Assembly (NCBI RefSeq): GCF_900116115.1
Contig: NZ_FOZP01000004.1
Location: 7,501 to 71,500, forward strand
Direction: 5' to 3'
Source of the DNA: Lutibacter maritimus
GTDB taxonomy: Bacteria > Bacteroidota > Bacteroidia > Flavobacteriales > Flavobacteriaceae
Length of the DNA: 64,000 nt
The notes beneath the pieces were generated by a model, which saw only the letters and a list, made by a program, of their open reading frames with translations, had not been told where the DNA came from and did no database searches. Shown here piece after piece: positions 22,379 to 50,197 of this stretch (its first letter is position 1; every line of letters starts with the position of its first letter). The position numbers and the translations under genes were made by a program.

Positions 22379-22452
22379 GGCCTCGTGGCGCAACTGAATA
22401 GCGCATCTGATTACGGCTCAGAAGGTTACAGGTTTGAATCCTGTCGAGGTCA
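22379..22452 (+). tRNA. tRNA-Arg (anticodon ACG)
   Basis: A complete cloverleaf. The acceptor stem GGCCTCG pairs with CGAGGTC, with one G-U. The D stem is GCGC/GCGC. The anticodon stem TCTGA/TCAGA encloses TTACGGC, which places ACG at 22413-22415. The T stem is ACAGG/CCTGT. CCA is not encoded. ACG is normally edited to ICG and reads CGU, CGC and CGA. The D loop has G18-A19 instead of G18-G19 and the T loop has U56 instead of C56, so the usual 19-56 tertiary pair is kept as A-U. It is followed by a terminator and an integrase remnant. Confidence 0.96.
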
Positions 22453-22476
22453 CTAAAGCTACATACAAATAGCAAC

Positions 22477-22510
22477 AAAACCATCTAAATCCTATGATTT
22501 AGGTGGTTTT
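22477..22510 (+). terminator. Terminator of tRNA-Arg
   Basis: A 15-base arm ending in CCATCTAAATC (22477-22491) pairs with GATTTAGGTGGTTTT (22496-22510) with one G-U, around CTAT. Confidence 0.8.
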
Positions 22511-22563
22511 TAGATTTTTAGGACATCAAAGAATTTGATGTTATTTGATTTAATATGGTAGCT

Positions 22564-22586
22564 AAGTGTCAGCTTAACTGACACTT
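22564..22586. repeat. Inverted repeat beside the integrase remnant
   Basis: AAGTGTCAG and CTGACACTT are perfect nine-base arms around CTTAA. It lies between tRNA-Arg and the integrase remnant, where recombinase arm or attachment sites are usual. No second copy was noticed in the window. Confidence 0.5.
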
Positions 22587-22664
22587 TCAAAAAAATGTAA
22601 ATGTAAGTTTATAGTTGATTTGACTTTCGTTTTGAACAATGTTTAACATTTTAAAACGACAACT

Positions 22665-22874
22665 ATGAAAACACATTTTCGACAAACTTTTGCCTTCAAA
22701 GTTCAAGGGCAATTAATGATGAAGCTTTACTTTATGTAAGAATTACTGTAAATAAAGAAAAACTTAATATCAGTCTAAAGAAAAAAACACCCATTGCTTT
22801 ATGGGATGCGCAAAAGAAAAAAGCTAAAGGAAATTCAGCAATCGCAAGACAAATAAATGATTTTTCCAGACTAA
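22665..22874 (+). pseudogene. Tyrosine recombinase (integrase) N-terminal remnant
   Basis: A start (MKTHFRQTFAFKVQ) is followed by a frameshift near 22705. The next frame reads NDEALLYVRITVNKEKLNI, then SLKKKTPIALWDAQKKKAKGNS and AIARQIND. This is the N-terminal arm-type DNA-binding domain of Bacteroidota phage/transposon integrases. The core-binding and catalytic domains (R-H-R-Y) are absent: after about 22874 the frame stays open to 23017 but no longer looks like an integrase and runs into the S41 gene end. Its place just after a tRNA gene marks an old integration event. Confidence 0.75.
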
Positions 22875-23002
22875 AAAACAAAAACCCCTATAAAGGAGCT
22901 TTTGAGTTGTATTTATACTTTTTTAATGCTTTGCGTAACGATTACCATTGTTATGGGTACCTGTTCAATTTACCATCTAAAGGCAACAATTTTATTATTT
23001 AC

Positions 23003-24259
23003 CTATTTAACTTTTAAATCTTTGATAACCCATTGTAATATATTATCTATCCCTAATTTATAGTCACTCCAATTATCAATTAATAGCACGTCTGGTTTAA
23101 TTCCGTTTGTTACTGTTTCTGATAGATTGAACTTTCTTTTAGAATATGTTATAATTAGTTTTGAGTTTGGTAATTCAAACTGATCCATATCTTGATAGCC
23201 GTTAGGATTAGAGCCAGTCGGTTGACCAACAGTTTTAGCATTTAACAAGTGTTTAAATAGTGCTGTATTACTAGTAGCCGCAGAAAATGTTTTATTACTC
23301 GTTAATACAAATACACCATTTTTCCAATCTATACTATCGGCAAGATTTAGTGCATATGCTAAAACTGTACCTACGTATAAATCTCCACCTCCATTATTAC
23401 GCATATCTATAACCACTTGATTTATTTGATTTTTTAAAATATAATTTACCAATGTTTCTCCAAAAATTTGCATATCTTCAAAAGTTGGATAGCTTTCAAA
23501 ATTTATATATATCGCTTGAGTGTTTTTAATTGGCGAAAACCATAGATAAGGGAAACTAGGGTTATTTGGCTTTGTGATTTCTGGTACACCAATAGTTAAA
23601 TAAACAAAATCTGAGGTTTTATTTAATGAATTTACATCTAATGCTTTTAGTGTTGTTTTTATTTTTTTATTATTTGCATCTAGAAATGTAAAGACCGCTT
23701 CATTCTTCTTTTTAGTAACATTAAGCGCAAATAGTAATTCACTTATAGTAAGGTAATTTCCTGTTCTAATAATTTGTGAAAATTGGTTTTCTACAAACTG
23801 TGCTACTTCTGAAACTTTAGCTGACACCTCTTTTATTGGAACATTATCAATGGCTACTAATGATAATTTTAATAAGTTATTATTCTTGTTATTTACTTTT
23901 ACCACACGCCACTGATTGTCAATATATTCTACTTCAAGAGGAAATTGATGTGTGGTCATATTTCTTAAGGAAACAGCTGTGTGTCCATCATTTATTTGTC
24001 TTGTTAAGCGCATTAATTTTAAAATAATATCAAAATCGTTTAATGATTCAACATTATTATAAATCTTGCTCCATTCAGTTAAAAACGTTTCTTTGGATAC
24101 CGAATGGTACAGGTCTATATGTTTTTGCTCTAAAGATTCCTTATAGATTTTTAGGTCTTCTTTCCAGTCAATTCTGTTAGCTGTCTGCGCAAGTAATATT
24201 TGAAACGTAGAAACGAAAAAAACTGATATAGGAATAATTATTTTTTGAAAGAAATTCAT
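23003..24259 (-). CDS. S41 family peptidase (C-terminal processing protease type), exported
   Basis: 418 residues with a signal peptide ending near LLAQ (residue 25). The N-terminal part (DWKEDLKIYKESLEQKHIDLYH, later RLTRQINDGHTAV) is the helical S41 cap. The catalytic domain has VVIDMRNNGGGDLYVG, then NKTFSAATSNTALF, where the Ser of TFSAA is the expected nucleophile, and GQPTGSNPNGYQDM. Metazoan-type tricorn/CPP peptidases cut C-terminal tails or peptides in the periplasm. It is the second gene of a two-gene unit with the 202-residue outer-membrane protein, 97 nt downstream. Its substrate is unknown. Confidence 0.85.
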   Translation of the reverse strand: MNFFQKIIIPISVFFVSTFQILLAQTANRIDWKEDLKIYKESLEQKHIDLYHSVSKETFLTEWSKIYNNVESLNDFDIILKLMRLTRQINDGHTAVSLRNMTTHQFPLEVEYIDNQWRVVKVNNKNNNLLKLSLVAIDNVPIKEVSAKVSEVAQFVENQFSQIIRTGNYLTISELLFALNVTKKKNEAVFTFLDANNKKIKTTLKALDVNSLNKTSDFVYLTIGVPEITKPNNPSFPYLWFSPIKNTQAIYINFESYPTFEDMQIFGETLVNYILKNQINQVVIDMRNNGGGDLYVGTVLAYALNLADSIDWKNGVFVLTSNKTFSAATSNTALFKHLLNAKTVGQPTGSNPNGYQDMDQFELPNSKLIITYSKRKFNLSETVTNGIKPDVLLIDNWSDYKLGIDNILQWVIKDLKVK

Positions 24260-24356
24260 AGTACTATTTATTTTCTATTATATTATGTATATCGTATGCC
24301 GTAAAACCATATGGTTAACACTGATGAAATAAACTTAAATCTAAATTTTTAATATT

Positions 24357-24965
24357 TTAGAATGAGTAGCCGATGGAAAATTCCCCATAAAATGGATCTA
24401 TAAAGTCATAATCACTCCTAAAATCCCTAATCATTTCATTAACATCTTGGGTATTCAGATTACTATTCCAATCTTCATTTGAAAACCCGTAACCAAGTGC
24501 AAAGGTTAAGGTAAAACCACTATTCCAAACCCATTTTTTTCCTGCATTTATACCAAAGCTCACATCGGGCATAGTAAAGTCAAAATTCGTTTCATTGATT
24601 TTACCTTCCCCGTTAAATTGTCTGTATCTACCATAAGCTCCAGCAAAATACGAATTCATTTGCTTATTGAAATGGTAACGATAGTTCAGTATAAAAGAAT
24701 ACCCACTGGATTCTATTCGTGCCTCGGTGTAGGTTTTGGGAATTGCTTCATAATCAAAGCGCACCACAAAGCCGTGCTTTTTTTGATGCAGGAATTCATA
24801 ATTCACAGAATAAATTCCAAATGCCACTGCTACAGGGCAAGCACTTATTGAGTGTTTAAATTCTGATGGTGACTTTAGCTTTAAGTCTTCTTTCTCTTGG
24901 GCAAAGGTAAAAGTTGAAACTACTATTGCAAATAGATAAAGGATAACGTTACGTTGTGATTTCAT
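24357..24965 (-). CDS. Outer-membrane beta-barrel protein, 202 residues
   Basis: Signal peptide ends near TFAQ (residue 22). The mature part alternates hydrophobic/aromatic strands, for example GFVVRFDYEAIPKTYTEARI, YSFILNYRYHFNKQMNSYFA and WVWNSGFTLTFALGYGFS, and ends with Phe (GEFSIGYSF), a normal C-terminus for an outer-membrane barrel of about eight strands. It resembles DUF3575-type flavobacterial barrels, without firm assignment. First gene of a unit driven by site D (25034-25059). Confidence 0.75.
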   Translation of the reverse strand: MKSQRNVILYLFAIVVSTFTFAQEKEDLKLKSPSEFKHSISACPVAVAFGIYSVNYEFLHQKKHGFVVRFDYEAIPKTYTEARIESSGYSFILNYRYHFNKQMNSYFAGAYGRYRQFNGEGKINETNFDFTMPDVSFGINAGKKWVWNSGFTLTFALGYGFSNEDWNSNLNTQDVNEMIRDFRSDYDFIDPFYGEFSIGYSF

Positions 24966-25006
24966 AATTAATTGTTTAAAATGGAAGTTTTGAGAATTTT
25001 ATAGTG

Positions 25007-25059
25007 CAAATATCTTATTCAATATAAAGTCAATCGTCTTGAATTATAATAAAGGACCT
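25007..25059 (-). promoter_or_regulatory. Regulon site D with promoter (202-residue barrel and S41 unit)
   Basis: The plus strand at 25034-25059 reads TCGTCTTGAATTA then TAATAAAGGACCT. On the minus strand the site is followed at once by TTGAC (-33) and by TTTGC (25006-25010), whose TTTG begins 24 nt after the site edge. The start codon is 69 nt from the site. One of four such sites in this cluster. Confidence 0.7.
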
Positions 25060-25076
25060 CACAATATCTATCCCTT

Positions 25077-26036
25077 TTAGTCTTGTGATTTCAATAAAAT
25101 ATGGCATATTATATTCTGCATTTCTTGAGATTTATACATTGGTATTTGGTGTCCTACGTCTTTCAACCAAAACAATTGCTTTTTAGGTGCTTTAAGCTTT
25201 TTAAAAAACTTTTCGGTAAGTTCAAAACTTGTTGTTAAATCTTGTTTTCCTATTAAAACATAAATAGGAATTTTAAAAACTGTTTTATATTTTAATAAAT
25301 TAATAGCATATAGTTGTTTATAAAGAGGCATCCATTGTTGTTCCCATTCTTTAAAGAAATTCATGTATTGTTCAAATTCATTTTCCGGAATGTAAGCTCC
25401 TTTATAATCGCTAATCCATCTAAATTGAATTGTCAAATCTTCAACATTTTCATAAGGTATATGTATGGAATTAAGTTGTTTAACAATTTCAATCTTATTT
25501 TGCTCTTTATAATGGTTTATAAGTTTTTTATTGGTTAAGTTTTGACTTTTTTGATTATTTATTAATGGGCTTATTGCCACAAGTGATTCAATGTTGTTTG
25601 GGTATTTTAATGCTAGATGAAACCCTAAAACAGTTCCCCAAGAATTGGCAACCAATACAATTTTGTCTTTATTATATTTTTCTAATAGAAACAACAAGAT
25701 TTCTTCGGCATCTTGTTTCATTTCTGATAAGGTTGGTGATTTTAAATTGAGACTCATTGATTTTCCTGCTCCCCTTTGATCCCAGTGCACAACTAAAAAA
25801 TATTCTTCTAATATGTTAGTTATCTGTTGTCTATGAGATGAAGTTGCTGCTCCGGGGCCACCATGAAGATATAACATGAGCGGTTTATTTTTATTTCCTT
25901 TAATACTTATAAATTGCTTTACACTTCCAACATTCACAAATTGGGTTGTATCAATACTATTTGAATTAACCATTGATTCTTGCCCAAACAAATTACAGGA
26001 TAGAACAATAAAAATAGTTATGAATAAATTTTTCAT
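25077..26036 (-). CDS. Exported alpha/beta hydrolase, proline-iminopeptidase-like
   Basis: 319 residues with a signal peptide (NLFGQE, residue 20). The oxyanion motif HGGPGAATSSHRQQ and WDQRGAGKS are typical of the proline iminopeptidase (S33) group. The nucleophile is Ser 132 in VANSWGTVLG, the acid probably Asp in IGKQDLTTSF, and the His in VGHQIP. An N-terminal peptidase activity outside the cytoplasm would fit the nearby S41 peptidase, but ester hydrolysis is equally possible. It follows the 214-residue protein gene at 66 nt, with no own regulon site. Confidence 0.83.
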   Translation of the reverse strand: MKNLFITIFIVLSCNLFGQESMVNSNSIDTTQFVNVGSVKQFISIKGNKNKPLMLYLHGGPGAATSSHRQQITNILEEYFLVVHWDQRGAGKSMSLNLKSPTLSEMKQDAEEILLFLLEKYNKDKIVLVANSWGTVLGFHLALKYPNNIESLVAISPLINNQKSQNLTNKKLINHYKEQNKIEIVKQLNSIHIPYENVEDLTIQFRWISDYKGAYIPENEFEQYMNFFKEWEQQWMPLYKQLYAINLLKYKTVFKIPIYVLIGKQDLTTSFELTEKFFKKLKAPKKQLFWLKDVGHQIPMYKSQEMQNIICHILLKSQD

Positions 26037-26102
26037 GGTTTTATATCTAAAAAAATGTTATTAATAATGTAAAAGTCTAATATCTTCTGTAAAGAATTGT
26101 AT

Positions 26103-26747
26103 TTAGAATCTTATTCCTACATAAAGGTTAGGTTCAAAAAGGAAATAGGATTTCCACTTATTATCTAATTGTTTAAATGCTTCTGGTGTATTGGTGTCAA
26201 ACATCCAATTTTGACAATGAATTTGGGGTTCTATAAAAATTCGTTTCTTTTTGCCAAAAGCAATGTGATAGCCAACGTGATAAGAATTGTAGAGCTTAAA
26301 GCCGTTTGCTATTTTTTTATTATTCTCATCTAGGTATGTTTTGTATTGTGGTAACACTTCAACTGAAGCAAATAATCCTTTCCAAAGCATACGTTGATAT
26401 GATACTCCAATTCCTGTTTCTTTCAAGTAACCAGGATAAAATTCGGTTTCAGAATCTATTTTATCTTTAAGTCCGTCCCACCATTGAATACCCATAGGTT
26501 GAAATAATCTCCAAGTAGCGATTTTAATCCCAATGATGTTTTTAGAATCTAATTCCTGCTTTACATGAATTTCAATGTGTTGCGTGTTGGTTTTTTCCCC
26601 TCCATTACCAATATTGCTTAAAATAATTGCAGGAAAGCTTACCCTATATTTAAAATTCGTATCATTATTTTTTAATGATTCTGATTTACGCTGAGCAAAG
26701 ATATTCAGCGTACAAAGTGTTAATCCGATGATGAATAGTTTTTTCAT
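26103..26747 (-). CDS. Secreted or outer-membrane protein, 214 residues
   Basis: Signal peptide ends near IFAQ (residue 18). The mature protein has beta-strand alternation (TQHIEIHVKQELDSKNIIGI, LFASVEVLPQYKTYL, YHVGYHIAFGKKKRIFIEP) and ends FEPNLYVGIRF with C-terminal Phe, as outer-membrane barrels do. No family is recognised. First gene of the unit with the 319-residue hydrolase, under site C. Confidence 0.65.
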   Translation of the reverse strand: MKKLFIIGLTLCTLNIFAQRKSESLKNNDTNFKYRVSFPAIILSNIGNGGEKTNTQHIEIHVKQELDSKNIIGIKIATWRLFQPMGIQWWDGLKDKIDSETEFYPGYLKETGIGVSYQRMLWKGLFASVEVLPQYKTYLDENNKKIANGFKLYNSYHVGYHIAFGKKKRIFIEPQIHCQNWMFDTNTPEAFKQLDNKWKSYFLFEPNLYVGIRF

Positions 26748-26797
26748 TTTAATTTGTTTTTAATAATTCTTTTTTGATTACTATTTAATTTATGATG

Positions 26798-26850
26798 CAA
26801 AGAAACACTAGAAGTTAATGTGCGTCGTCCTGAATTATGATTTCAAACCT
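26798..26850 (-). promoter_or_regulatory. Regulon site C with promoter (214-residue protein unit)
   Basis: The plus strand at 26825-26850 reads TCGTCCTGAATTA then TGATTTCAAACCT. On the minus strand TTTG (26798-26801) of the -7 element TTTCTTTG begins 24 nt past the site. The start codon is 78 nt away. Confidence 0.7.
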
Positions 26851-26888
26851 TCTTAATTTTTAATACTAAAATCCATTTTAGGATGTAG

Positions 26889-28322
26889 CTATTTTTCAAC
26901 TATTAAGTTTTCTAAATACCTCAGAGCAGAAGCAATTAAGTTATTACGTTTTTTTGCCTTTTCTTGGTAAAAACCCAAAGTTTGTTTATTTAATTTTCGA
27001 CCCTCTACAAAAACATAGATTGGTTTTTGCATGGTTGATAATGTTATTAACGGATTTTCATCAACTAACAACAAATTGGCCATTTTACCAACTTCAATAG
27101 TTCCAAGAGAATTCATAATAGCGTGTGTTTTGGAAGCATTTACGGTAGCTGTCTTCAAAACTTCATAATTTGAAAGGCCAGCTTCTTTGTAAAAATTTAA
27201 TTCTGTATGCAATGAAAATCCAGGAAGCGTAACACCAATTCCAGCATCTGTTCCGCAAATTATATTTACACCTGATTCATTCAGTTTTTTTACGATGGTA
27301 AGATGAAAATCATGTTGTTTTTTAATTCTGCTGACTGTTGTTGAATCCTTTTGCTTGGCAGATAACCAACGGTTGAATTGATTTTTACTATCTACTCTTT
27401 TCACGAGAGGATTCATATAATCTAGCTGTTCTGAATCTAACATAGAATCATTGTTCATCATTTGATAGATATTATTGAATACCGTTAAAGTAGGACAATA
27501 GCTTGTTTGCTTTGATTGGGAAATTAAGTTGATGATTGTTTGCAGTTTAAGCGTATCCAAATCATATTGTAATGGTTGCTGTACAATTTCTTCGGCATGT
27601 TCAATAGACTTAATTTGAGGATTCAAATGGTCTGAAAACAGTACTTTTTTAGAAGTGTGGGCAACAATATCCATTTCAGAAATTTTAGCTTGTTCAATAA
27701 CTGCATCAAAGATTGGTTTATCCAATCCATCATAAATTTTGATGAAGTCATAACCTCTGTCTTTATATGAAATCACCTTTTCCTTAGCTTCTTCGGGGCT
27801 AAATAAATTCAAATTATCGTCACCAATAAATTCTGGTCCTGTTAGTTTTGGTCCTGTAGTAAATAAGGTGGGTGAAATTATCCTATCATTTAATATATCT
27901 TCCTTAATTCTTAAATGCATTGGCATACCCCATACATTTCTCATAGCGGTAACACCGTTTGCAAGGTATAGGCCCAGTTCATATCTATCCCACAGATGCA
28001 CGTGCATGTCTATTAAACCCGGGGTTAAATATTTGTTTTTGGCATCTATAATTTCGATGCCGTTAACATTAATAGTATCTGCAATCTGCTGTATAATTCC
28101 TTCTTTTATGAATACCATTTTATTGACTAAAACAGTGTCTTGATTCATTGGAATGATATTGACATTGGTAATTAGGTAAGATTTATTGGATAGTGAGTCC
28201 TTTTTATTAATCTTTAAATAATTAGTCTCCAACGAATCAATCCAGAGGGTAATGATTCCCATTAGAACAATAATCCCAAAGAGTAGAAATCCAATTTTTA
28301 AAATTCGTTTTAGTATTTTCAT
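26889..28322 (-). CDS. Membrane-anchored amidohydrolase
   Basis: 477 residues. One N-terminal helix (about 10-28) anchors the enzyme, with the body outside the cytoplasm. The metal-dependent amidohydrolase barrel follows: GLIDMHVHLWDRYELG supplies His 107 and His 109, then DFIKIYDGL (possible metal-bridging Lys region), HTSKKVLFSDHL, SIEHAEEIVQQP and ICGTDAGIGVTLPGFSLHTE (catalytic Asp). It ends with the family beta-sandwich (IEVGKMANLLLVDENPLITL). Related enzymes act on imidazolonepropionate, prolyl dipeptides or organic amides. It is 130 nt after the SDR gene and is probably the last gene of the site B unit. Confidence 0.85.
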   Translation of the reverse strand: MKILKRILKIGFLLFGIIVLMGIITLWIDSLETNYLKINKKDSLSNKSYLITNVNIIPMNQDTVLVNKMVFIKEGIIQQIADTINVNGIEIIDAKNKYLTPGLIDMHVHLWDRYELGLYLANGVTAMRNVWGMPMHLRIKEDILNDRIISPTLFTTGPKLTGPEFIGDDNLNLFSPEEAKEKVISYKDRGYDFIKIYDGLDKPIFDAVIEQAKISEMDIVAHTSKKVLFSDHLNPQIKSIEHAEEIVQQPLQYDLDTLKLQTIINLISQSKQTSYCPTLTVFNNIYQMMNNDSMLDSEQLDYMNPLVKRVDSKNQFNRWLSAKQKDSTTVSRIKKQHDFHLTIVKKLNESGVNIICGTDAGIGVTLPGFSLHTELNFYKEAGLSNYEVLKTATVNASKTHAIMNSLGTIEVGKMANLLLVDENPLITLSTMQKPIYVFVEGRKLNKQTLGFYQEKAKKRNNLIASALRYLENLIVEK

Positions 28323-28452
28323 TTATTTATTTTTAAGTTATGCTAACCTATTGCGGCTATCCCAAGCCTATAGTTTTATTGCTATTTTATTTGACTTTAA
28401 TTAGCATTTATTTACGATTTGATTTTTCCTAAGATTTTCATAATAAATCTAT

Positions 28453-29313
28453 CTAAAATTTTTTAGCTTCTTCAATATAAAAATCTTCTAAACGATGTGT
28501 ACCATAAGTGGGTGCGATAGTATCTTCTGCCATTAAGGTTAGAAAAAACTCAAGTGGCCCATAGGTTTTTACACTAGTAAAGGTTCTCAAACTCCAAATA
28601 GTTAGTTTTCGCATCCAATCTGGTAAATGAATGATTTTTATAGGTTTGTTCAATGCATTTAAAGCTAATTCACTAATTTCATTAAGACTTAACACATCGG
28701 GTCCTCCTATGGTTAATTCCTTGTTGGTTTCCTCTAAATTGTCCACAATATATGTTGCCAAATCTTTACCGTGAATTAGGTTAAATTTTTGATAGCCCGA
28801 TCCAAACAAATAAACACGACCCGATTTTGCCATCTGCAAAAAATCTTTCATATCTGAAAAAAAACCGTTGGGTCTTACTATGGTATAGTTTAATCCTGAG
28901 GATTTTAAAGCATCAACAAACTTTTCCTTGGCTTCAAAAATTTTTAAATTCCTATATTTATTGCCATTAATTGCCGAAACGTAAACGAAATGTTTTACAC
29001 CTGCTTTTTTTGCTTCTTCCAACAAATTTATATTGGCTTGATAATCGACATCCATATAGGTGAGCCCATCTTTTTGTCTGGTAATACCCACAGTAGAAAT
29101 TACAGCATCAATACCTTTACAAATATCCCGTAGGGTGTCAGGTTTAGTAACTTCAGCTTGTTTTATTTCTAAATAGTTTTCATTTGTATTTATTAACTTA
29201 TCAGGGTTACGGACAATGGCTACTACCTGATTTTGTTGTTCAATCAATACTTTTAACAAATAACCTCCTAAATATCCTGTAGCTCCTGCTAATAATATGT
29301 TAGTATGTTTCAT
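28453..29313 (-). CDS. NmrA-like/atypical SDR NAD(P)-binding protein
   Basis: 286 residues, cytoplasmic. The N-terminal Rossmann motif is LLAGATGYLGGYLLKVL (GxxGxxG) followed by VVAIVRNPDKL. The later segments CKGIDAVISTVGIT, VKHFVYVSAINGNKY and YTIVRPNGFFSDM match NmrA/atypical-5 SDRs such as NADH-ubiquinone oxidoreductase-like or UDP-sugar-type epimerases. The catalytic YxxxK is not preserved as in classical SDRs. It lies 21 nt after the serine hydrolase gene. Substrate not known. Confidence 0.82.
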   Translation of the reverse strand: MKHTNILLAGATGYLGGYLLKVLIEQQNQVVAIVRNPDKLINTNENYLEIKQAEVTKPDTLRDICKGIDAVISTVGITRQKDGLTYMDVDYQANINLLEEAKKAGVKHFVYVSAINGNKYRNLKIFEAKEKFVDALKSSGLNYTIVRPNGFFSDMKDFLQMAKSGRVYLFGSGYQKFNLIHGKDLATYIVDNLEETNKELTIGGPDVLSLNEISELALNALNKPIKIIHLPDWMRKLTIWSLRTFTSVKTYGPLEFFLTLMAEDTIAPTYGTHRLEDFYIEEAKKF

Positions 29314-29334
29314 TACAAAAAGGTTAATGTGATT

Positions 29335-30414
29335 TTAATTAAACTCATTTGTTAATAATTGCTCTATAATGGTATTGCGTTGCGTACCTGTATCGTCTTG
29401 TTGATTACTTAATAGTACAATGGTAGCATCAAATTCTGGAATAAAACCAATCATACTCCAATAGCCATTAATATCACCACCGTGCCAATACATTGTTGTA
29501 TTACCTTCTTGAGTGGTAAACCAGCCTAAGCCAAAATCGGTATATCCACTTGATACGTTCTGGGTAAATATTTCGGTTTTTTCAGCATTCGTAAACCAAT
29601 TGGTTTTTACAGCATTTACCCAAGTTTCCATATCTTTTGGGGTACTACTAAAGTCGCCAGCACCAAAAGCGATTGTCATTGGATAGCTGCTATTTGGAGT
29701 TCCGTTTAAATAGCCCTGAGCGTTTGTATTTATATCTATTACATCTGCACCTTTATACGTGTTTGACATCTCTAATGGATTAAATATTTTTTGTTGAATA
29801 TAGTCGTGGTAAGGCATTTGAGATACTTCTTGAATTAATAAAGCAGCAATAAGAAAGTTTGAGTTGCTATACTGTTTATTAGTACCTGGCGAGAAATTGA
29901 GACCATTTTCAGAAATCATATCTTTTATTACTTGGTATATATCTTCTTCATCCAAAATTTCTCCTTGTTCATAAGCATCCTCTACTACAAGTTGATAATC
30001 TGGAATACCCGATTGATGTGATAATAACTGAGCAATAGTAATTTGATTACCATTTGGAAATTCAGAATCAAATTCATCTAACGTTTGATTAAAACTGCTG
30101 ATTAAACCGTCACGTTTTAATTGTACAATTCCTGCGGCGGTTAATGTTTTGGTTACCGAACCAATGCGATAATTAAGATTATAATCTTGGGGTAATGCTG
30201 TGTTTTCGTTTGCTAACCCGAAGCCTTGACGTATTAAATTATTTCCATTCTTTGTTATAATGGCATAACCTTGAAAATCAATATCATTCAATAAATTTTC
30301 AATGGTTGTGTAGTTGGTTATTGGGTTAGGATCGTCGTTCTTTGAGCAAGATGTTATAAATCCTAAAATTAATATTATTATTACTAGGAAGTGTTTGTGT
30401 AAAGTTGTCATCAC
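29335..30414 (-). CDS. Class C beta-lactamase-like serine hydrolase, lipoprotein
   Basis: 359 residues. The lipobox ITSC puts the lipidated Cys at 23. The serine hydrolase fold shows S-x-x-K as SVTK (86-89), Y-x-N as YSN in NKQYSNSNF, and HGG in MYWHGGDINGYW, the three catalytic boxes of penicillin-binding protein/class C enzymes. Homologues include D-aminopeptidases, esterases and carboxypeptidases, so it need not act on beta-lactams. First gene of a likely three-gene unit (serine hydrolase, SDR, amidohydrolase) under site B. Confidence 0.87.
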   Translation of the reverse strand: MMTTLHKHFLVIIILILGFITSCSKNDDPNPITNYTTIENLLNDIDFQGYAIITKNGNNLIRQGFGLANENTALPQDYNLNYRIGSVTKTLTAAGIVQLKRDGLISSFNQTLDEFDSEFPNGNQITIAQLLSHQSGIPDYQLVVEDAYEQGEILDEEDIYQVIKDMISENGLNFSPGTNKQYSNSNFLIAALLIQEVSQMPYHDYIQQKIFNPLEMSNTYKGADVIDINTNAQGYLNGTPNSSYPMTIAFGAGDFSSTPKDMETWVNAVKTNWFTNAEKTEIFTQNVSSGYTDFGLGWFTTQEGNTTMYWHGGDINGYWSMIGFIPEFDATIVLLSNQQDDTGTQRNTIIEQLLTNEFN

Positions 30415-30451
30415 TATTTTTTTTAAATTGATTTGAAATTATTTGATTGTG

Positions 30452-30504
30452 CAAATTTGATATAATAGGAGGCTCTAATCGTCCGAGATTATAATTTCGA
30501 ACGA
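30452..30504 (-). promoter_or_regulatory. Regulon site B with promoter (serine hydrolase unit)
   Basis: The most symmetric copy. The plus strand at 30479-30504 reads TCGTCCGAGATTA then TAATTTCGAACGA, a near-perfect palindrome. On the minus strand TTTG (30452-30455) starts 24 nt past the site. The start codon is 65 nt away. Confidence 0.75.
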
Positions 30505-30604
30505 ATTAAAGTGTTTAATAAAACAAATTGATTTTAAGCAAAGTTCAGCTCGTTCTTTTATAAAAGGACGTATTTCATACTAGCAAAATTTTTTTTAGAA
30601 AAAT

Positions 30605-31273
30605 TTATTTTAAAGTTTCAGTTTGAAAATCTTCAATTGTCTTTAGATAACGCAAAGCATCATCAATTTGACTTCCGTTACCACATAGTAACCAGTTGAG
30701 CCATTTTTCATTAAAGCGTTTTTGTTGTAAACCCCTTAATAGAACTAAGGAAACAACTTCTAATATGATAGTTGTTATACCAAAAGATATAATTATGTTG
30801 AAGTTTAGCAAGGCCATTAAATCTATATTAAAGATGGCTTTGAAAAAAAAGATGCCAACAAATGGGCCAAATGGTAATAACCAAGCTACTATTCTCAAAT
30901 TTTGAACTATTGCAGTTTTAAGCATAGCTAACTTTTCTTGAATCTTAACTACAGCTTCAGTATAGTCAATAGACAGAATGAGTTTCAATTGTTTTATTGA
31001 AGACCACACCAACCAAAAAGAAAAAAATGTCACTACTGCTCCAGAAAAGGCAAAATACCAAAATTGAGCATATTCTAAAGCAAAATACATGGCATAAAAA
31101 CCTGTTATTGTATAAAAAATTAATGTGGTAATTGGTAAAAATAATAAACCAAAAAGCGATGATTTCGCCTTATCTAATTTCATTTCTTTTAAAAGCGTTA
31201 AATTTAATTTTCTATTTGCTTCTAAAAGTATTTCGTTTTGTTTCCAAAGATTTTGTATATCTAAATTTTCCAT
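30605..31273 (-). CDS. Four-helix membrane protein paired with the ECF sigma factor
   Basis: 222 residues. About 50 cytoplasmic N-terminal residues (IQNLWKQNEILLEANRKLNL) precede four membrane helices (about 38-60, 65-90, 120-140, 150-175) and a short basic C-terminal tail. It starts 4 nt after the sigma factor stop, a spacing typical of sigma/anti-sigma pairs. There is no zinc anti-sigma His-x3-Cys-x2-Cys motif, so if it restrains the sigma factor it does so by another fold, perhaps the N-terminal helix. Anti-sigma function is inference from position. Confidence 0.6.
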   Translation of the reverse strand: MENLDIQNLWKQNEILLEANRKLNLTLLKEMKLDKAKSSLFGLLFLPITTLIFYTITGFYAMYFALEYAQFWYFAFSGAVVTFFSFWLVWSSIKQLKLILSIDYTEAVVKIQEKLAMLKTAIVQNLRIVAWLLPFGPFVGIFFFKAIFNIDLMALLNFNIIISFGITTIILEVVSLVLLRGLQQKRFNEKWLNWLLCGNGSQIDDALRYLKTIEDFQTETLK

Positions 31274-31277
31274 GATT

Positions 31278-31772
31278 TTATTGTTTAAATTTTTTCTTTA
31301 ATTGTGTTTTAATTCTGCTAATTTTTGTACCTACATTACTTAAAGAAATACCCATAGCTTCAGAGATTTCTTTATGACTATTGCCATCTAAATACATAAT
31401 AACAATAGCTTTGTTTAATGGGTCAAACTCCTGAATAAATGCTCTTAATTGTTTGATTTTTTCATCATATTCATTTGTTACATCTTCATTAATTGCAACA
31501 ATCTTAGAAGGCATTGCAACTTCATGCTTTTTTCTAGTTTTCTGTTTTCTATAATGTGATATCGTAATATTAAAAGCAACTCTATACAACCACGTAGTGA
31601 CTTTAACTTTATAATCAAAATTGTCATAGCTTTTGATGACTTGAAAAATAATTTCTTGTATTACATCTTCTTGCTCATTACTATCCGTGCAATAACTATT
31701 TACAATTTTGTAAATGAGGTTTTTGTTGTCCTCTATGATATCTACAATATCAGGTTTGTTCACTTTCATCAT
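31278..31772 (-). CDS. ECF-type RNA polymerase sigma factor
   Basis: 164 residues. Region 2 is visible as QEDVIQEIIFQVIKSYDNF and TTWLYRVAFNITISHYRK (core and -10 recognition). Region 4 is KAIVIMYLDGNSHKEISEAMGISLSNVGTKISRIKTQLKKK (-35 recognition helix-turn-helix). Its start overlaps the stop of the upstream hydrolase by 4 nt (ATGA), so translation is coupled; the membrane protein follows at 4 nt. The three form one unit under site A. The usual Bacteroidota partner, a FecR-like anti-sigma with TonB receptor, is missing. Confidence 0.9.
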   Translation of the reverse strand: MMKVNKPDIVDIIEDNKNLIYKIVNSYCTDSNEQEDVIQEIIFQVIKSYDNFDYKVKVTTWLYRVAFNITISHYRKQKTRKKHEVAMPSKIVAINEDVTNEYDEKIKQLRAFIQEFDPLNKAIVIMYLDGNSHKEISEAMGISLSNVGTKISRIKTQLKKKFKQ

Positions 31773-32797
31773 AGTCCGTTTTTAATTGACCATTCTCGAA
31801 TTTTATTCATTGCTTCTTCATTATGCCTAATACCATTGTGTGTTTCATTTTTAATTAAATAACAATCTCCATTTGAATATGATTTAATTAGTATCGGATA
31901 TTCTTCTGCAATAAATACTTCATCTTCCTTACCTACCAAGGTTATAAATGGTGCAACAATTCTTTTTAAAGTAGATCTCAAATTTTCAGGATAAATAGCA
32001 TTCATACTTCGGTACGAATAAGATGTAATAGGCATTTGTTTTGGTAAATTATAAAACACAACCTTTAACGAATCATATTGATGAATACCAAACTCATTAA
32101 GCATTTTTAATCCTAATCCTCTAGATAAATGCGACTTTATAAAGCTATTTTTTAAATCTATCTGTTGATTTGTCGTTGCTGATGATGTGCCAAAATTAGG
32201 AGCAAATAACACGTAACCATCTATTTTAGTTTCAGGAAAAGTTTCCGAATGTCTTAGTATAATTCCTCCTCCCATAGAATGTCCAACAAGTATTATTTTT
32301 TGATGTGGTTTATCACTTCTTATAGTTGTAATAATTTCGTTTAAATCTTCAGCATATTGGTTTGGTTTTGAAATATCACCCGGAATACCACCTGACGCAC
32401 CATGACCTCTTAAATCTATAGAAATTACTTCTACTTGTAACGCTTCTCTAATAAGACCAGACATTTTATTATAGGTATAACTTGATGCTAATACTCCATG
32501 TAATAGAATTACGGTTTTATTACTTAAAAACGGATATTTTTGAGCCGTAATTTTAACATGATCTTTCATATTAAAGACAACAGTTTCTGAAGTATTTGGT
32601 TGTTCAAAACCTAAATCTGCTAAATCTTTTGGACTTGGATTTGGCATAAAAGGACTATCAAATTGAGGTTCGGGAAGCGCAATTAATTTGAGGGCTTCCT
32701 CTACTATTCGAATACTATCTGTTTTAATCTGCCCAAAAATCACTTGGCTAGATGTAATTACTAATAGTAATAATGCTTTGTAAATAATTTGCTTCAT
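31769..32797 (-). CDS. Exported alpha/beta hydrolase, monoacylglycerol-lipase-like
   Basis: 342 residues with a signal peptide ending near IFGQ (residue 22). The catalytic parts are HGVLASSYTYNKM (oxyanion), DLRGHGASGG, Ser in VGHSMGGGIIL, Asp in LVGKEDEVF and the His in ETHNGIR. This order fits lysophospholipase/monoacylglycerol lipase-type hydrolases (Hydrolase_4). Translationally coupled to the sigma factor by a 4-nt overlap. An enzyme at the head of a sigma factor operon is unusual. Substrate unknown. Confidence 0.83.
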   Translation of the reverse strand: MKQIIYKALLLLVITSSQVIFGQIKTDSIRIVEEALKLIALPEPQFDSPFMPNPSPKDLADLGFEQPNTSETVVFNMKDHVKITAQKYPFLSNKTVILLHGVLASSYTYNKMSGLIREALQVEVISIDLRGHGASGGIPGDISKPNQYAEDLNEIITTIRSDKPHQKIILVGHSMGGGIILRHSETFPETKIDGYVLFAPNFGTSSATTNQQIDLKNSFIKSHLSRGLGLKMLNEFGIHQYDSLKVVFYNLPKQMPITSYSYRSMNAIYPENLRSTLKRIVAPFITLVGKEDEVFIAEEYPILIKSYSNGDCYLIKNETHNGIRHNEEAMNKIREWSIKNGL

Positions 32798-32874
32798 ATC
32801 TATAAGTTTTGATGGCGTTTTTTACATTAATCGTTTTATGTGAAAAAAAATCACACACTTTTGTAAATACTTTT

Positions 32875-32928
32875 CAAACTTAAAGATAAATTAAGGTGTC
32901 AATCGTTCTGAAATATAATTCCGAACCA
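32875..32928 (-). promoter_or_regulatory. Regulon site A with promoter (hydrolase-sigma unit)
   Basis: The plus strand at 32903-32928 reads TCGTTCTGAAATA then TAATTCCGAACCA. On the minus strand the site is followed by TTGAC (-33), a 17-nt spacer and TAAGTTTG (32875-32882), a perfect TAnnTTTG. The TTTG starts 25 nt past the site. The start codon is 106 nt away. Confidence 0.75.
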
Positions 32929-32949
32929 AATTAAAGTACTTGTAAAAAA

Positions 32950-34722
32950 TTAGTTTTTATTGTATTTTACCCATTGACTCGGCGTGTTGCCTTCTACTTT
33001 TTTAAAATAGGTATTAAATACACTTTTAGAATTAAAGCCACTATCATAGGCTAACCCAAGAATGGTTAAGTGCGAATTTTTAGGATCTAAGGCTATAGTT
33101 TTAAAGTGATTTAAACGGTATGAATTCACATAATTATTAAAATTCATACCTATCACTTCATTTATTAAAAAGGAAACTTTATTAGTTGAAATTTCTAGCT
33201 TTTCTGAAATTGTACTTAATGATAAAGAAGCATCAAGATAAGGTTTCTCTTCATTAAAGTAAGCAGCTAATTTGTTTTGTAATTCCTTTTGCTCTTCCTC
33301 TAATAAAAGCGGTTTGGTTGTTTCTATAGTTTTTTGATTATCAACTATTTCATCAATTGAAAAATTACTTACATGTAAATTATAAAAATCATTAAACGCT
33401 CTCAAAGGTTTTAACAAAGGTTCTTGTTTATAATTGAGAATTTGCCCGCGTTTTTGTGATACAAATTGTTTCAATAATTCAAAAGCTTCATTTGTGTAAT
33501 CTGTATTGGCAAGAATGAAGAGTTCAAACAAGGTCAGTTGATCTCTTTTTAAATGATTAGAAAGAAAGTTTGATAAAACTTCTTTAGGTAAGGAATTTCT
33601 ATTTTCATTTACAGCTTCATTTAATAATTGTATTTTTTCCCACAAAGGGTTAAATTGAAATTCATTTTCTAATTGTTCTCTTTTATTAAGAGCAATTAAA
33701 CAAACCGCTTTTTTATGATAAGCCAAATCAAAATCAGGACGTAGATGAATTGCCTTTGTGATATGGTGTAAGGTAATATCAAAATCACCTTTATAGTAAT
33801 AAATATTTGCGAAAATGTATTGATTATTTGCTGAAAGTGGATCGATTTCTAATAGTTTTTTACCATAAAATATAGCTTCATTAAAATGGCCATGTGCCAT
33901 AAATAACTTGACCATAACATCTAACGCATCTATGTGATTAGGATTTATAGCAAGAACATCTTTTATGTAATGATATGTAGATTTAAAGTCCCATTCTCTC
34001 CAAAAACATTTATTTACATAACACATGGGGTATTCGGGTAAATGAGTGTCAATTTCTTTGGCTTTCATTAAGTTGATAAAAACTTTTTCAGTTCCTTCCT
34101 CTTTACTCATATACCCCCAAGTGGTTAACAATTCAAAGCATTGAACATTACCATAATATGCTTTTGCATAATTAACATCTAATGAAATTGCTTCATTATA
34201 AAATTGGATAGCTTTCTTTAAAGCATCTGGTGTCCATTGTAATTGATTAAAGCGTCCTTTTAAAAATAATTGGTATGCATCAATACTGCTTGTTGGTTGC
34301 TTAATTAAATGGTCTTGCACTTCAAAATGCCCAAAATTGTTTCGAATTTCATCAGCAATAGCTATGCTAATCTCATCCTCTAAATCAAATATATTTATTA
34401 GTTCTCTATCAAATTTTTTAGACCAATAATGGGATCCGTCGTTAGCGTCTATTAATTGTGCTGTTATCCTAACTATCTCTTGGGATTTTTTTATACTTCC
34501 TTCAAGAATTGTATTAACACCTAATTGCTCGCCAATTTTTCTAATATCAATTTTTTTACCTTTGAAGGCAAATGAAGAGGTTCTTGCTATAACCTTAAGT
34601 TGCTTAATTTTTGTTAAAGCATTTATAATTTCTTCTGTAATCCCGTCACAAAAATATTCGTTTTCAATATCATTGCTCCTATTTATAAAGGGTAGGACTG
34701 CTATAGAATTCCTTTCTTTCAT
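32950..34722 (-). CDS. AraC-family regulator with TolB/FlgO-like and TPR domains
   Basis: 590 residues. The N-terminus (SIAVLPFINRSNDIENEYFCDGI, then KQLKVIARTSSFAFKGKKID) is the TolB/FlgO-like domain often found in TPR-type adenylate cyclases and signal regulators. TPR units occupy about 145-340 (AKAYYGNVQCFELL, AHGHFNEAIFYGKKLLEIDP, NIYYYKGDFDITLHHI). The C-terminal about 100 residues are an AraC helix-turn-helix pair (EKLEISTNKVSFLINEVIGM, LGLAYDSGFNSKSVFNTYFKK). It heads the cluster and is the best candidate to bind the four 26-bp sites downstream. Its own upstream region has no such site. No membrane segment is seen. Confidence 0.88.
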   Translation of the reverse strand: MKERNSIAVLPFINRSNDIENEYFCDGITEEIINALTKIKQLKVIARTSSFAFKGKKIDIRKIGEQLGVNTILEGSIKKSQEIVRITAQLIDANDGSHYWSKKFDRELINIFDLEDEISIAIADEIRNNFGHFEVQDHLIKQPTSSIDAYQLFLKGRFNQLQWTPDALKKAIQFYNEAISLDVNYAKAYYGNVQCFELLTTWGYMSKEEGTEKVFINLMKAKEIDTHLPEYPMCYVNKCFWREWDFKSTYHYIKDVLAINPNHIDALDVMVKLFMAHGHFNEAIFYGKKLLEIDPLSANNQYIFANIYYYKGDFDITLHHITKAIHLRPDFDLAYHKKAVCLIALNKREQLENEFQFNPLWEKIQLLNEAVNENRNSLPKEVLSNFLSNHLKRDQLTLFELFILANTDYTNEAFELLKQFVSQKRGQILNYKQEPLLKPLRAFNDFYNLHVSNFSIDEIVDNQKTIETTKPLLLEEEQKELQNKLAAYFNEEKPYLDASLSLSTISEKLEISTNKVSFLINEVIGMNFNNYVNSYRLNHFKTIALDPKNSHLTILGLAYDSGFNSKSVFNTYFKKVEGNTPSQWVKYNKN

Positions 34723-34863
34723 TTGATTTTAGGTTTGTTTAAAGCCTTTTAAAATTAATTTAATTCTAAATTTGGTACATTGTTTTTTATATCTAGAAAA
34801 AAATCTCTAGGTTACATGGTTTTTCTAATTCTTTACTTCAATTATTTAGTTTGTTTTAAATTC

Positions 34864-35085
34864 CTAATTTTTCACTACTTTAACTTGGTAACAATCTATT
34901 AACCAATTTATTGCATTTGCTTCAAATAGACCTCATCTATAGGATAATTTCTTATGTTTCGTTGAAAATTCTTTATTTTATCTAGTGCTTATTTTGGATT
35001 GCTTTGTACATCATTTTTAAAAATATAGCGACCTATTCTCTAATGAAATAATAATTTCCTCCATCTTCATCTACTCAAACAAAGT
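34864..35085 (-). pseudogene. Decayed gene, helical-protein remnant
   Basis: Read on the minus strand, adjacent frames give VDEDGGNYYFIRE, RIGRYIFKNDVQSNPK, a stop, ALDKIKNFQRNIRNYPIDE, VYLKQMQ and, after a shift, AINWLIDCYQVKVVKN. Stops and shifts are mutational: joined, they form one plausible helical sequence. No family is recognised. Nothing else in 34723-35450 reads as a gene; 35200-35394 is an open frame without protein character. Confidence 0.5.
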
Positions 35086-35559
35086 TGATATCGCATTTTT
35101 ACTTTCCATAAACTGCTACATTACTCACCAACACTTTATGTTAGCTTTGATTATTTTTCTATAGAAATTTTAGCTTTATCACAAAAAATAAAATTATAGT
35201 TGCAACTCTTTTCTATGTTGTTTTATCAAACGTTTTATTTTTTTAAAATTTCATTAACAAATTTACATATTTTGATTTTTATACAATTACTTGTTAGACT
35301 TATTATTACCACCATTTTGTTTCATCATCAAATTAGCTATACAAAAGTTTCTATTTTGTACTGCTGTTTCTTATGGAATAGGATTTTTTGGTAGTTTGAA
35401 TTATACAATCCTTCGACTGAACTTAGGTGACAACTTAATTCTCAATAGAAAAAAGTAAATACTATTTTTTTGTCGTTTATATCTTAGAGAATTGGAAGCT
35501 TTATACAGCTTAAGTTTGTAGTTCATTAAATTAATTTAATAATTAAGTAAAGAAAGAAT

Positions 35560-35631
35560 AAAAGAGAGGATTAAGGTTAGTATATACGGTGAAACCTAGA
35601 TTTCGTCAACTCTGATAACCTCCTCTCTTTT
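35560..35631 (+). ncRNA. Candidate structured RNA ending in a terminator-like stem
   Basis: AAAAGAGAGGA (35560-35570) pairs perfectly with TCCTCTCTTTT (35621-35631), followed by TCTAC. After a TTAA bulge, GGTTA (35575-35579) pairs with TAACC (35616-35620), directly stacked on the first stem. The enclosed 36 bases hold a small GGT-GAA-ACC hairpin (35588-35596). A terminator alone would not need the inner parts. It lies alone in the decayed zone; function unknown. Confidence 0.45.
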
Positions 35632-35719
35632 TCTACTTAAATTTTATTCAGTTCTTATAAATTTATAAACTAGATTTTAAGTCATTGAAATTTGAGTAGC
35701 TATTCTTTCCAAAAAAAAA

Positions 35720-36180
35720 TACCTGAAGATAAATATATTGAAATCTTGTAGTCTGGTCGGACCTTCCAATTGCTTATGCATAAATGTCTCCTGAAAAATC
35801 AATTAATGCATTTACTAAATTAGGCTGATAGGTGGTTTATCCAGAAATCCACCACATAGTAACACCAACTCTATGACTTAAAGAAGGTTCATTCCACAAG
35901 TCTGTCATTATTCTATTGGGAATTGAGGTATCTTTCATTATGTCGTGGACTTGAACTGCTATTGCCTTTTTTTGTAAAAGCATTTACAAATATCCTAGCT
36001 GTTTCTTTTACAGCATTAACCCAATTATCTGAAGTGAGTCCAGCATTTAAAAGTTCATCTCTTGTTACAGCGTTAAAATGACCTTATATACTATTTGAAG
36101 TCATTTGCGAAACATACACTAAAACCAAATCATTATCTTCACTGTATACGTTTGATGTCACTAATTCATTAAGAAATAAA
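35720..36180 (-). pseudogene. Decayed gene with in-frame stops and a frameshift
   Basis: The minus strand reads ELVTSNVYSEDNDLVLVYVS, QMTSNSI, stop, GHFNAVTRDELLNAGLTSDN, WVNAVKETARIFVNA. After a shift it continues AIAVQVHDIMKDTSIPNRIM, TDLWNEPSLSHRVGVTMWWI, SG, stop, TTYQPNLVNALIDFSGDIYA, stop, AIGRSDQTTRFQYIYLQV. Three stops and one shift interrupt about 150 residues of otherwise protein-like sequence. I do not recognise the family. Confidence 0.6.
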
Positions 36181-36227
36181 ATACTAAATCCTTGTAAAAC
36201 AGTTGTTTTACAAGGATTTAGTATTTT
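36178..36227. repeat. Long perfect inverted repeat (23-bp arms, 4-base loop)
   Basis: The arms at 36178-36200 and 36205-36227 are perfectly complementary around AGTT; the core is CTAAATCCTTGTAAAAC. A T run follows on the plus strand and an A run precedes, so it could terminate transcription in both directions. It sits at the right edge of the decayed zone. The remaining 36228-36404 is AT-rich leader of the kinase gene. Confidence 0.75.
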
Positions 36228-36404
36228 TTAAACTTGATTTCATATACTTAGTAAAGTTAAATAAATAATTAATTACACTCAACAACCCATTATTAATATA
36301 CAATTAAAAACTTCACACATTTAAAAAAATTAATCTATATGTTTTTCCAAAGTATTAACTTTACATAATACTTTTTTACATAATACTTTAAAAAATCATT
36401 TTAA

Positions 36405-37505
36405 ATGTCACCATTAGTTACAATTGAAAACAAACTAAAAGAACGAATTAAAGAATTATCGTGCTTATATTCAGTTACATCAATTATTATGAATTGTAAT
36501 TATGATAAAATTGAAGATTGTATTGAAAAAATAGCCTACAGCCTAAAAGATGCATTTCAATATAGTGAAGATACATGCATTACAATTAAAACCGATGAAT
36601 ACACAATTTCTACATTAGAATATCCTAAAAAAATGCCAACAATACAATCACAAATTAACGTATTTAACACAAAAATTGGTGAATTAACTGCTGGTTACAA
36701 TAATAACAAACTAACTGAAAACTCTTTTTTATATGAAGAAAAACAACTTTTGGAAAAAGTAAGTATTGAAATAGGAAATTTATTAGAACGAAAAAAAATT
36801 CAGGAAAATGAAGTGCTTTTAAAACGAAAAGTTGAACGTGCAGATAGAATTAGCATTCTTGGAGAAATAACTGCTGGTATTGCGCATGAATTAAACACAC
36901 CATTAGCTAATATTTTAGGTTTTGCCGAACTTTTAAAAACTAATTTTATTGAAGACAAACAAACAACTAAAGATCTAGATAAAATTATTAATAGCGCAAT
37001 TTTTTCTAGAGAAGTGGTTAAAAAACTAATGTATTTTGCATGTGAGATTCCACAACAAATTACCGTTGTAAACATGAACAATACTATAACTGAAGCTATC
37101 AATTTATTAGAACCTTCTTTTAAAAAGAAAAATATTAAATATGTTTTAAAATTTCAAAAACCAACCATTCAATTAAATGTTGATAGCATACAATTAATTC
37201 AGGTGATATTTAATATGGTATTAAATGCCATTTATTTTTCTCCTGAAAATGGTGAAATTCAAATTGAAACGCTTGATAACAAAAATAACGTTATTTTAAA
37301 CATTTCTGATCAAGGACCCGGCATAAAACACGCAATTGCTGATAAAATTTTTAATCCATTCTTTACTACAAAACCAGTTGGTGATGGTGTTGGTTTAGGA
37401 TTAAGTGTTGTGCATGGTATTATTAAAAGTCACAAAGGAACAATTACACATCTACCAAATTCACCAAAAGGAACTATATTTAGTATTAAATTTCCTAAAA
37501 TATAA
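36405..37505 (+). CDS. Cytosolic sensor histidine kinase, NtrB-type partner
   Basis: 366 residues without membrane segments. The first 130 residues look GAF-like (LSCLYSVTSIIMNC, a start typical of flavobacterial GAF kinases). The HisKA helix has ILGEITAGIAHELNTPLAN with the phosphorylated His at 161. The ATPase domain shows VIFNMVLNAIYFSP (N box), ISDQGPGIKHA (G1) and GDGVGLGLSVVHGII (G2). Its stop is 4 nt before the response regulator, so they form one unit. The cytosolic location suggests an internal metabolic or redox signal. Confidence 0.92.
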   Translation: MSPLVTIENKLKERIKELSCLYSVTSIIMNCNYDKIEDCIEKIAYSLKDAFQYSEDTCITIKTDEYTISTLEYPKKMPTIQSQINVFNTKIGELTAGYNNNKLTENSFLYEEKQLLEKVSIEIGNLLERKKIQENEVLLKRKVERADRISILGEITAGIAHELNTPLANILGFAELLKTNFIEDKQTTKDLDKIINSAIFSREVVKKLMYFACEIPQQITVVNMNNTITEAINLLEPSFKKKNIKYVLKFQKPTIQLNVDSIQLIQVIFNMVLNAIYFSPENGEIQIETLDNKNNVILNISDQGPGIKHAIADKIFNPFFTTKPVGDGVGLGLSVVHGIIKSHKGTITHLPNSPKGTIFSIKFPKI

Positions 37506-37509
37506 AACG

Positions 37510-40887: not shown

Positions 40888-40907
40888 TTTAAATTTTTTA
40901 TAATTAT

Positions 40908-41720: not shown

Positions 41721-41808
41721 TATATTTCTATTTTATTTTTTTTGATGTAATTTAATTTCTTTACTTCTTATCTAATTGAAGCATAAAAATACTTATTAAT
41801 TTTAAGAT

Positions 41809-44250: not shown

Positions 44251-44253
44251 AAA

Positions 44254-45438: not shown

Positions 45439-45455
45439 GGTTTATTTACATCAAA

Positions 45456-46985: not shown

Positions 46986-47057
46986 TTTTTTAATTTTTTA
47001 ATCTGAAATTATTTCTTAAAATACTGTTTTATACAGTTTTTTTATTTTTAATACTCC

Positions 47058-50078: not shown

Positions 50079-50127
50079 AATTTAATTTGGTTAAAATTTA
50101 ACTAAAACTGATAATTAATAAACTCAG

Positions 50128-50146: not shown

Positions 50147-50197
50147 AGAATAAATTGAATGGTTCGAATTTTAGTTTTATTGAGTTTCATAATGGTA

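Follow-up and report, generated by a model that had tools for sequence, protein, structure and literature searches.

Background

The closest described counterparts of the locus reported here are the Vat streptogramin A O-acetyltransferases, the D-stereospecific S12 peptidases, tRNA-borne integrative islands and integron cassette arrays. The locus itself is an island of eleven genes behind a tRNA-Arg(ACG) gene of Lutibacter maritimus (Flavobacteriaceae). It lies in a stretch of 64,000 nucleotides (contig NZ_FOZP01000004.1, positions 7,501 to 71,500; in the following "the window") that is part of contig C10 in our numbering of the 3.48-Mb genome. The island is very probably one mobile, co-regulated unit, with copies of a 24-bp palindromic operator standing before four of its gene groups.

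Vat enzymes (NF000311) are located on resistance elements, whereas the Vat-like enzyme met in this study travels with a regulator and hydrolases in relatives of the island; the island in the window lacks it. Its copy in the cluster of the related genome G022 reaches 290 bits, just under the curated cut-off of 300, and the enzyme of the related clusters scores 218 bits to VatA structures with the NGxNH motif present in the alignment. For the profile of the island's serine hydrolase, the nearest solved relative is an alkaline D-peptidase (PDB 4y7p, 135 bits), with S-x-x-K, Y-x-N and H-G-G kept, but the window enzyme differs from the D-stereospecific S12 peptidases by a lipobox and low identity. 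The alkaline D-peptidase structure is reported in PMC4570186, and a D-stereospecific peptidase activity of Bacillus is reported to cleave gramicidin A (PMC9541196).

With tRNA-borne integrative islands the locus shares the insertion behind a tRNA-Arg, near-empty sites in relatives, an integrase relic and a relic junction. Unlike them it possesses no intact integrase, the tyrosine integrase being present as a relic only, and the tRNA end does not recur as a clear direct repeat. Integron cassette arrays are alike in that same-direction units are exchanged around a constant element, which is here the operator-promoter. Integron-like arrays were rejected: the general repeat search returned nothing of the kind, including attC-like repeats (no dedicated attC search was made), and the family matches contain no integron integrase. 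A polysaccharide utilization locus was also rejected, with no SusC/SusD among the 11 island genes and such a pair outside the island (45456-50078), as was an anti-phage defence system, with no PADLOC match for the eight of eleven island proteins submitted. As in a regulon under a single regulator, a shared operator precedes each unit and is confined to the system. An earlier interpretation of this DNA (the sequence-only reading) knew of no named pathway with this gene set, and the titles and abstract openings of the papers listed in literature searches hold no description of one either.

An operator before four gene groups

The operator-led groups are hydrolase-sigma-membrane protein, serine hydrolase-NmrA (with the amidohydrolase behind), barrel-S33 and DUF3575-S41. 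Their operators are the following:

32901-32930, minus strand: operator 1, before hydrolase-sigma-membrane protein (score 20.9, 2 mismatches)
30477-30506, minus strand: operator 2, before serine hydrolase-NmrA (no mismatch)
26823-26852, minus strand: operator 3, before barrel-S33 (score 28.9, 2 mismatches)
25032-25061, minus strand: operator 4, weak, before DUF3575-S41 (profile score 14.5; five shuffles at most 10.8)

The promoter motif associated with the operator is A..TTTG, which we take to be the -7 box of Bacteroidota. Operator 1 is followed by TTG-N17-TAAGTTTG, with a spacing to the box 1 nt longer than standard. Operator 3 has TTTG at the standard distance with T instead of A, and operator 4 a -7-like box at the standard distance. 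Altogether two of the four window operators have the box at the standard distance; in one the spacing is 1 nt longer, and in one T replaces A. With up to three mismatches the operator pattern occurs at three places in the entire 3.48-Mb genome, all of them in the island (reversed control: 1 match); the fourth place was found by the profile alone. A strict Bacteroidota promoter pattern matches the island three times vs 1.0 in shuffles, and a general sigma-70 promoter scan was uninformative (88 vs 80.8 expected).

The operator in related loci and genomes

A scan with the barrel as query found 127 loci, of which 80 were analysed; 42 of these are close (at least 40% identity) and 38 distant. Genus-level comparisons comprise 38 genomes, family-level comparisons 299. 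Upstream of the serine hydrolase, the block around TTATAAT is present in 37/37 aligned loci, and in L097 the operator is a perfect 24-bp palindrome. The operator profile, trained on 22 strings from serine-hydrolase upstream sites, detects 104 sites in the 80 loci. Of these, 84 belong to the close loci, with at least one in each of the 42, and the other 20 are spread over 11 distant loci (of 38). At most 260 nt downstream of 95/104 sites lies a cluster-family gene; for 39 of these it is the serine hydrolase, which is circular because the profile was trained on such sites; this circularity does not apply to the 56 sites preceding other cluster genes. The reversed profile yields one site in the 80 loci and five permuted profiles none. 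A..TTTG occurs within 40 nt of 67/84 close-locus sites, all 67 at identical distance, vs 13/84 in a control stretch 300 nt upstream. The claim of the sequence-only reading that these genes form one system with its own regulator agrees with the operator before four groups and its recurrence in related loci.

Among family genomes, the operator (up to two mismatches) is present in 10/13 with the serine hydrolase (at least 58% identity) vs 7/286 others (Fisher 3.8e-12). Four of these seven non-carriers were inspected. In G290 and G075 the operator is immediately flanked by a regulator gene and a cluster gene; in G053 its neighbours are a hydrolase gene and a distant paralogue of the regulator (34%), and G051 has no regulator or cluster-type neighbour beside the match. 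The carrier G209 possesses an extra operator between a second regulator gene and a 201-aa barrel. The sites in G290, G075, G053 and G209 are placed such that the operator is linked to the regulator, not to any single enzyme. A cluster with a distant regulator paralogue in G008 has an operator site as well.

Recurrence and exchange of units

The serine hydrolase is present at E<=1e-70 in 15/299 family genomes and with at least 58% identity in 13, own genome included. Of the close loci, all 42 have the barrel, which served as search query; the regulator is present in 40, a second serine hydrolase in 39, NmrA in 38, the serine hydrolase in 36, the Vat-like gene in 31, a 201-aa barrel and S41 in 17 each, a 122-aa membrane protein in 15 and S33 in 11. 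The 222-aa protein (3) and the sigma gene (2) are rare. Distant loci contain the regulator in 23, the Vat-like gene in 9 and NmrA in 8 of 38 cases. The sequence-only reading would have been refuted by relatives with the genes one by one in other contexts or by family-wide synteny of the region. The genes do occur without the integrase relic, but mostly as a set and not singly, and the synteny does not extend over the family.

The fetched contexts share the gene set but mostly not the surroundings; in a comparison of 224 flanking ORFs (open reading frames) of 42 named loci, shared flanks are nearly all between locus pairs. In L073, L080 and L081 (genomes G082, G048 and G209, three genera) the cluster stands directly behind one shared gene, presumably mnmE-like, which perhaps marks a second preferred insertion site. 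No tRNA was found within the stretch in 14/15 other cluster loci scanned; L076 has a tRNA-Ser.

Trees of the serine hydrolase, NmrA and barrel were calculated for the window and 36 of the 42 close loci, which have all three genes at 70% identity or more. They break up Kordia (approximately unbiased (AU) test, p 1e-34) and Winogradskyella (p 7e-8); the three Lutibacter copies are separated with weaker support (p 0.0155). These groups were chosen after the tree was seen, and paralogy was not excluded. The gene trees conflict with the genera, therefore the cluster moves between lineages. G290, which belongs to another genus, lacks the serine hydrolase part; a 19.9-kb stretch contains the regulator (90%), amidohydrolase (93%) and DUF3575 (91%) of the window together with two operators and an S41 gene. 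A 59-bp piece that matches the NmrA end (85%) is located between the genes for regulator and amidohydrolase, and the arrangement is most simply read as putative descent from a window-like one by deletions. Nearest relatives also differ by gene: L129 for sigma factor and membrane protein, L106 for the serine hydrolase, L092 for S33. From the content of G290 and these differing relatives it follows that units change under a constant switch.

Further traces of such clusters were observed in Lutibacter. L087 of the own genome (G000:C12:201610-201834) is a 75-aa fragment with 69% identity to the N-terminus of the regulator and is apparently left over from another regulator copy. L172 (G003:C6:17039-17356), in another Lutibacter, is a shortened copy of the 214-aa barrel and likely part of a decaying cluster. 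L207 (G000:C19:190500-210400) represents a second cluster in the own genome, with no copy of the operator; it contains a distant TPR-AraC regulator, an acyltransferase, a serine hydrolase, a sigma factor, a 218-aa protein, S9/S15-type hydrolases, a Vat-like gene and a LytTR two-component pair.

Genes of the island

The eleven same-strand genes of the sequence-only reading correspond to 11 intact minus-strand ORFs at 23003-34722. In transcription order these are:

32950-34722, minus strand: regulator with TPRs and an AraC-type helix-turn-helix, 90% to G290
31769-32797, minus strand: 342-aa alpha/beta hydrolase, 4-nt overlap with the sigma gene
31278-31772, minus strand: ECF (extracytoplasmic function) sigma factor, 81% to L129
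30605-31273, minus strand: 222-aa membrane protein, no family match
29335-30414, minus strand: class C-type serine hydrolase (S12-like, PF00144), lipobox
28453-29313, minus strand: NmrA-like NAD(P)-binding protein, 89% to relatives
26889-28322, minus strand: amidohydrolase, N-terminal membrane anchor, 93% to G290 and 55% to L135
26103-26747, minus strand: 214-aa outer-membrane-type barrel, no Pfam family, AlphaFold2 pLDDT 81.8
25077-26036, minus strand: S33-type alpha/beta hydrolase, signal peptide, 82% to L092
24357-24965, minus strand: DUF3575 barrel, 80% to L106 and 91% to G290
23003-24259, minus strand: S41 peptidase-like, signal peptide, dN/dS 0.16-0.19

Signal peptides, lipobox and membrane anchors were assigned by eye; 7/11 products carry one of them. 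The gene families proposed in the sequence-only reading come close for S41, the two S33-type hydrolases, the serine hydrolase, the amidohydrolase, the ECF sigma factor and the AraC-type regulator, whose N-terminus is presumably TolB-like; one of the two proposed barrels is DUF3575, the other without Pfam family. The serine hydrolase matches PF00144 with 163.8 bits (cut-off 27), and S-x-x-K, Y-x-N and H-G-G are kept in 17/17 sequences. Class C beta-lactamase (NF033085) was rejected at 64.7 bits against a curated cut-off of 415; DD-peptidases (R61, 117 bits) and AmpH are further relatives. For the 214-aa barrel (alignment A4: the window and 54 of 79 loci with barrel), a structure search gave OmpA as best PDB match at E 2.6e-3 and none at E<=1e-3. 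The 222-aa membrane protein, by position only a candidate anti-sigma factor, occurs in 2/38 genus genomes and 1/299 family genomes, and furthermore in loci L091, L120 and L129. The 342-aa hydrolase has no relative at E<=1e-10 among the fetched loci.

Ratios of nonsynonymous to synonymous substitution rates (dN/dS) against near relatives are 0.05-0.23 for 9/11 genes (14 of 16 pairs computable), i.e. the genes are under purifying selection. The amidohydrolase has no value because two of the 16 pairs were not computable, and the 342-aa hydrolase was without a relative for comparison. The island genes are evidently maintained, while the mobility genes around them, as judged from their remains, decayed.

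Integration site, borders and relics

The borders of the island and the remains of mobile elements are located as follows:

22379-22453, plus strand: tRNA-Arg(ACG), an integration hotspot in the genus and the one tRNA detected in the window
22477-22510, plus strand: terminator-like hairpin directly behind the tRNA, at the left edge of the inserted DNA
22665-22864, plus strand: decayed integrase N-terminus, 51-53% identity over ~66 aa
35509-35747, strand not assigned: relic of the upstream end of an IS110-type element, 84% to G022
36154-36234, plus strand: relic attachment junction that joins the final 7 nt of tRNA-Arg to the hairpin following this tRNA in relatives
36405-38835, plus strand: histidine kinase and sigma-54-type response regulator, accessory, outside the island proper

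The tRNA-Arg site was mapped in 19 relatives, among which the cargo behind it varies; in 6/19 it is followed by one integrase family (~420-aa ORFs). The window retains the N-terminus: of these six integrases, five match 22667-22864 with their first ~66 aa, the ATG at 22665 lies in a different frame from the match, and the truncated relic has no match further downstream. Hairpin 22477-22510 has an identical sequence in G022 and similar ones in G009, G002 and G028. Near-empty sites are present in G018 and G037, where the conserved core starts 43 nt and 136 nt after the tRNA, respectively. The acquired island of the sequence-only reading, and the frameshifted integrase and inverted repeat it had seen behind the tRNA, are thereby corroborated.

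In the window, homology to the core of the relatives restarts only at about 56433, so that ~34 kb are inserted behind the tRNA-Arg. A border solely at 56.4 kb was rejected in view of the relic junction, which aligns to G015, G004, G007 and G014 with scores of 69, 66, 61 and 55 (289 random pieces: at most 36) and, by its hairpin part alone, to G025 (60). Its hairpin (36178-36227) is real, and the motif occurs once in the whole genome. Of the tRNA 3' end, 7 nt joined to the hairpin homology are present at 36154-36234; no longer repeat of it was found, and no tRNA 12-mer occurs elsewhere in the window. The junction lies inside the ~34-kb insert and suggests two stacked insertions. One would be the hydrolase island (22454 to about 36153), the other the remainder, in which the two-component pair and a polysaccharide locus are located. 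The right border which the sequence-only reading had placed near 36227 thus coincides with the junction, but the inserted DNA runs on to about 56432. That reading had also regarded the two-component pair as a conserved outer flank; this was ruled out, the kinase (E<=1e-50) being present in 4/38 genus genomes, own included. The remainder further contains a uronate-type polysaccharide locus (39709-56165) with UxuA, SDR, GH2, GH88-like, SusD, SusC, a hybrid two-component regulator and a pectate-lyase-like protein.

The ~1.7 kb after 34722 contain no ORF of 90 aa or more, in agreement with the broken genes described earlier, and a translated search gave nothing credible (best E 0.001). The IS110-type relic lies here; in G022 the matching stretch is upstream of an IS110-type transposase ORF and overlaps its first bases. 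In G022 (L036) this tRNA is followed by a related operon that points the other way, and an IS110-type transposase gene marks the join; G022 shares with the window the tRNA-side sequence (86% over 337 nt) and the IS110-type relic. The two operons may derive from one shared insertion followed by inversion or from two insertions; the AU test disfavours a common clade of the Lutibacter operons (p 0.0155, as above).

Possible role of the island

The TolB-like/TPR/AraC-type regulator would bind the palindromic operator beside the -33 position of several promoters and switch them together, presumably by activation rather than repression. The mostly exported or membrane-bound hydrolases, together with the NmrA-type protein, may then inactivate or clear a toxic small molecule, most likely of the peptide or amide type as predicted from the families. 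Operator-led units would be gained, lost and replaced between lineages, which would let each host run its own enzymes from the same switch. The Lutibacter island itself sits in the tRNA-Arg hotspot, and the integrase there has decayed. We lean, with modest confidence, towards this reading in full, i.e. a mobile, self-regulated island of mostly exported enzymes inactivating a peptide- or amide-type compound, its role being suggested by protein families only. Consistent with inactivation are the Vat-like enzyme in the clusters of relatives, an MFS (major facilitator superfamily) family in 9/80 loci with one member annotated, and the alkaline D-peptidase as nearest solved structure of the serine hydrolase.

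Exported hydrolases could also digest peptides, esters or amides outside the cell, the products being taken up as food. S41, S33-type, amidohydrolase and serine hydrolase are common digestive families, and the seven products with export or anchoring signals would fit. Such nutrient scavenging is nevertheless unlikely: the 11 island genes include no uptake gene (TonB receptor, SusC/D), none is found among the annotated recurrent families of relatives (not all families are annotated), and the acetyltransferase in 31/42 close loci is unfit for feeding. Quite improbable is a response to envelope stress, in which hydrolases and barrels would remodel the cell's own surface or peptidoglycan upon sensed damage. 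The kinship of the serine hydrolase to DD-peptidases and AmpH, the two barrels and the ECF sigma factor with its membrane partner speak for it, but a patchy presence in 15/299 family genomes and the exchange of enzyme units do not suit a housekeeping role, and the Vat-like gene does not fit. That unrelated genes merely collected in a tRNA hotspot, which takes varied cargo and where window genes have different nearest relatives, is largely refuted by the operator distribution and hardly credible, since gene set and operator recur at other places in other genera and the operator of the own genome is confined to the island.

Several observations weigh against the inactivation by a mobile, co-regulated island, in addition to the circular 39 sites and the AU groups chosen afterwards. 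Palindromes are unusual for sites of AraC-type regulators. Only 11/38 distant loci have an operator site, and six clusters with distant regulator paralogues (L207, L209, L211, L212, L215, L216) have none at a score of at least 14. Three of the 13 carriers (G177, G232, G245) are without operator at two mismatches. The reversed pattern matches 11/299 family genomes, for which reason single matches in non-carriers are largely near background, and one of the 22 training strings was mis-extracted (self score 6.6). The island in the window lacks not only the Vat-like gene but also the second serine hydrolase and the MFS gene, and the Vat-like gene of the own genome lies outside the island on contig C19.

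Conclusions

Beyond this locus, it is a tentative possibility that Bacteroidota possess a class of mobile chemical-defence regulons, in which one TolB-TPR-AraC regulator and one operator-promoter command units that would be exchanged by recombination at the operators, with a different inactivation kit in each host. If the proposed reading is true, the island represents a widespread accessory system of Bacteroidota, undescribed as far as titles and abstract openings show, whose gene pool can be listed from sequence alone because it is defined by a short operator. It would show how one regulator stays in control while the enzymes under it change, and it may serve as a reservoir of enzymes that inactivate compounds, such as Vat-like acetyltransferases, S12-type hydrolases and amidohydrolases.

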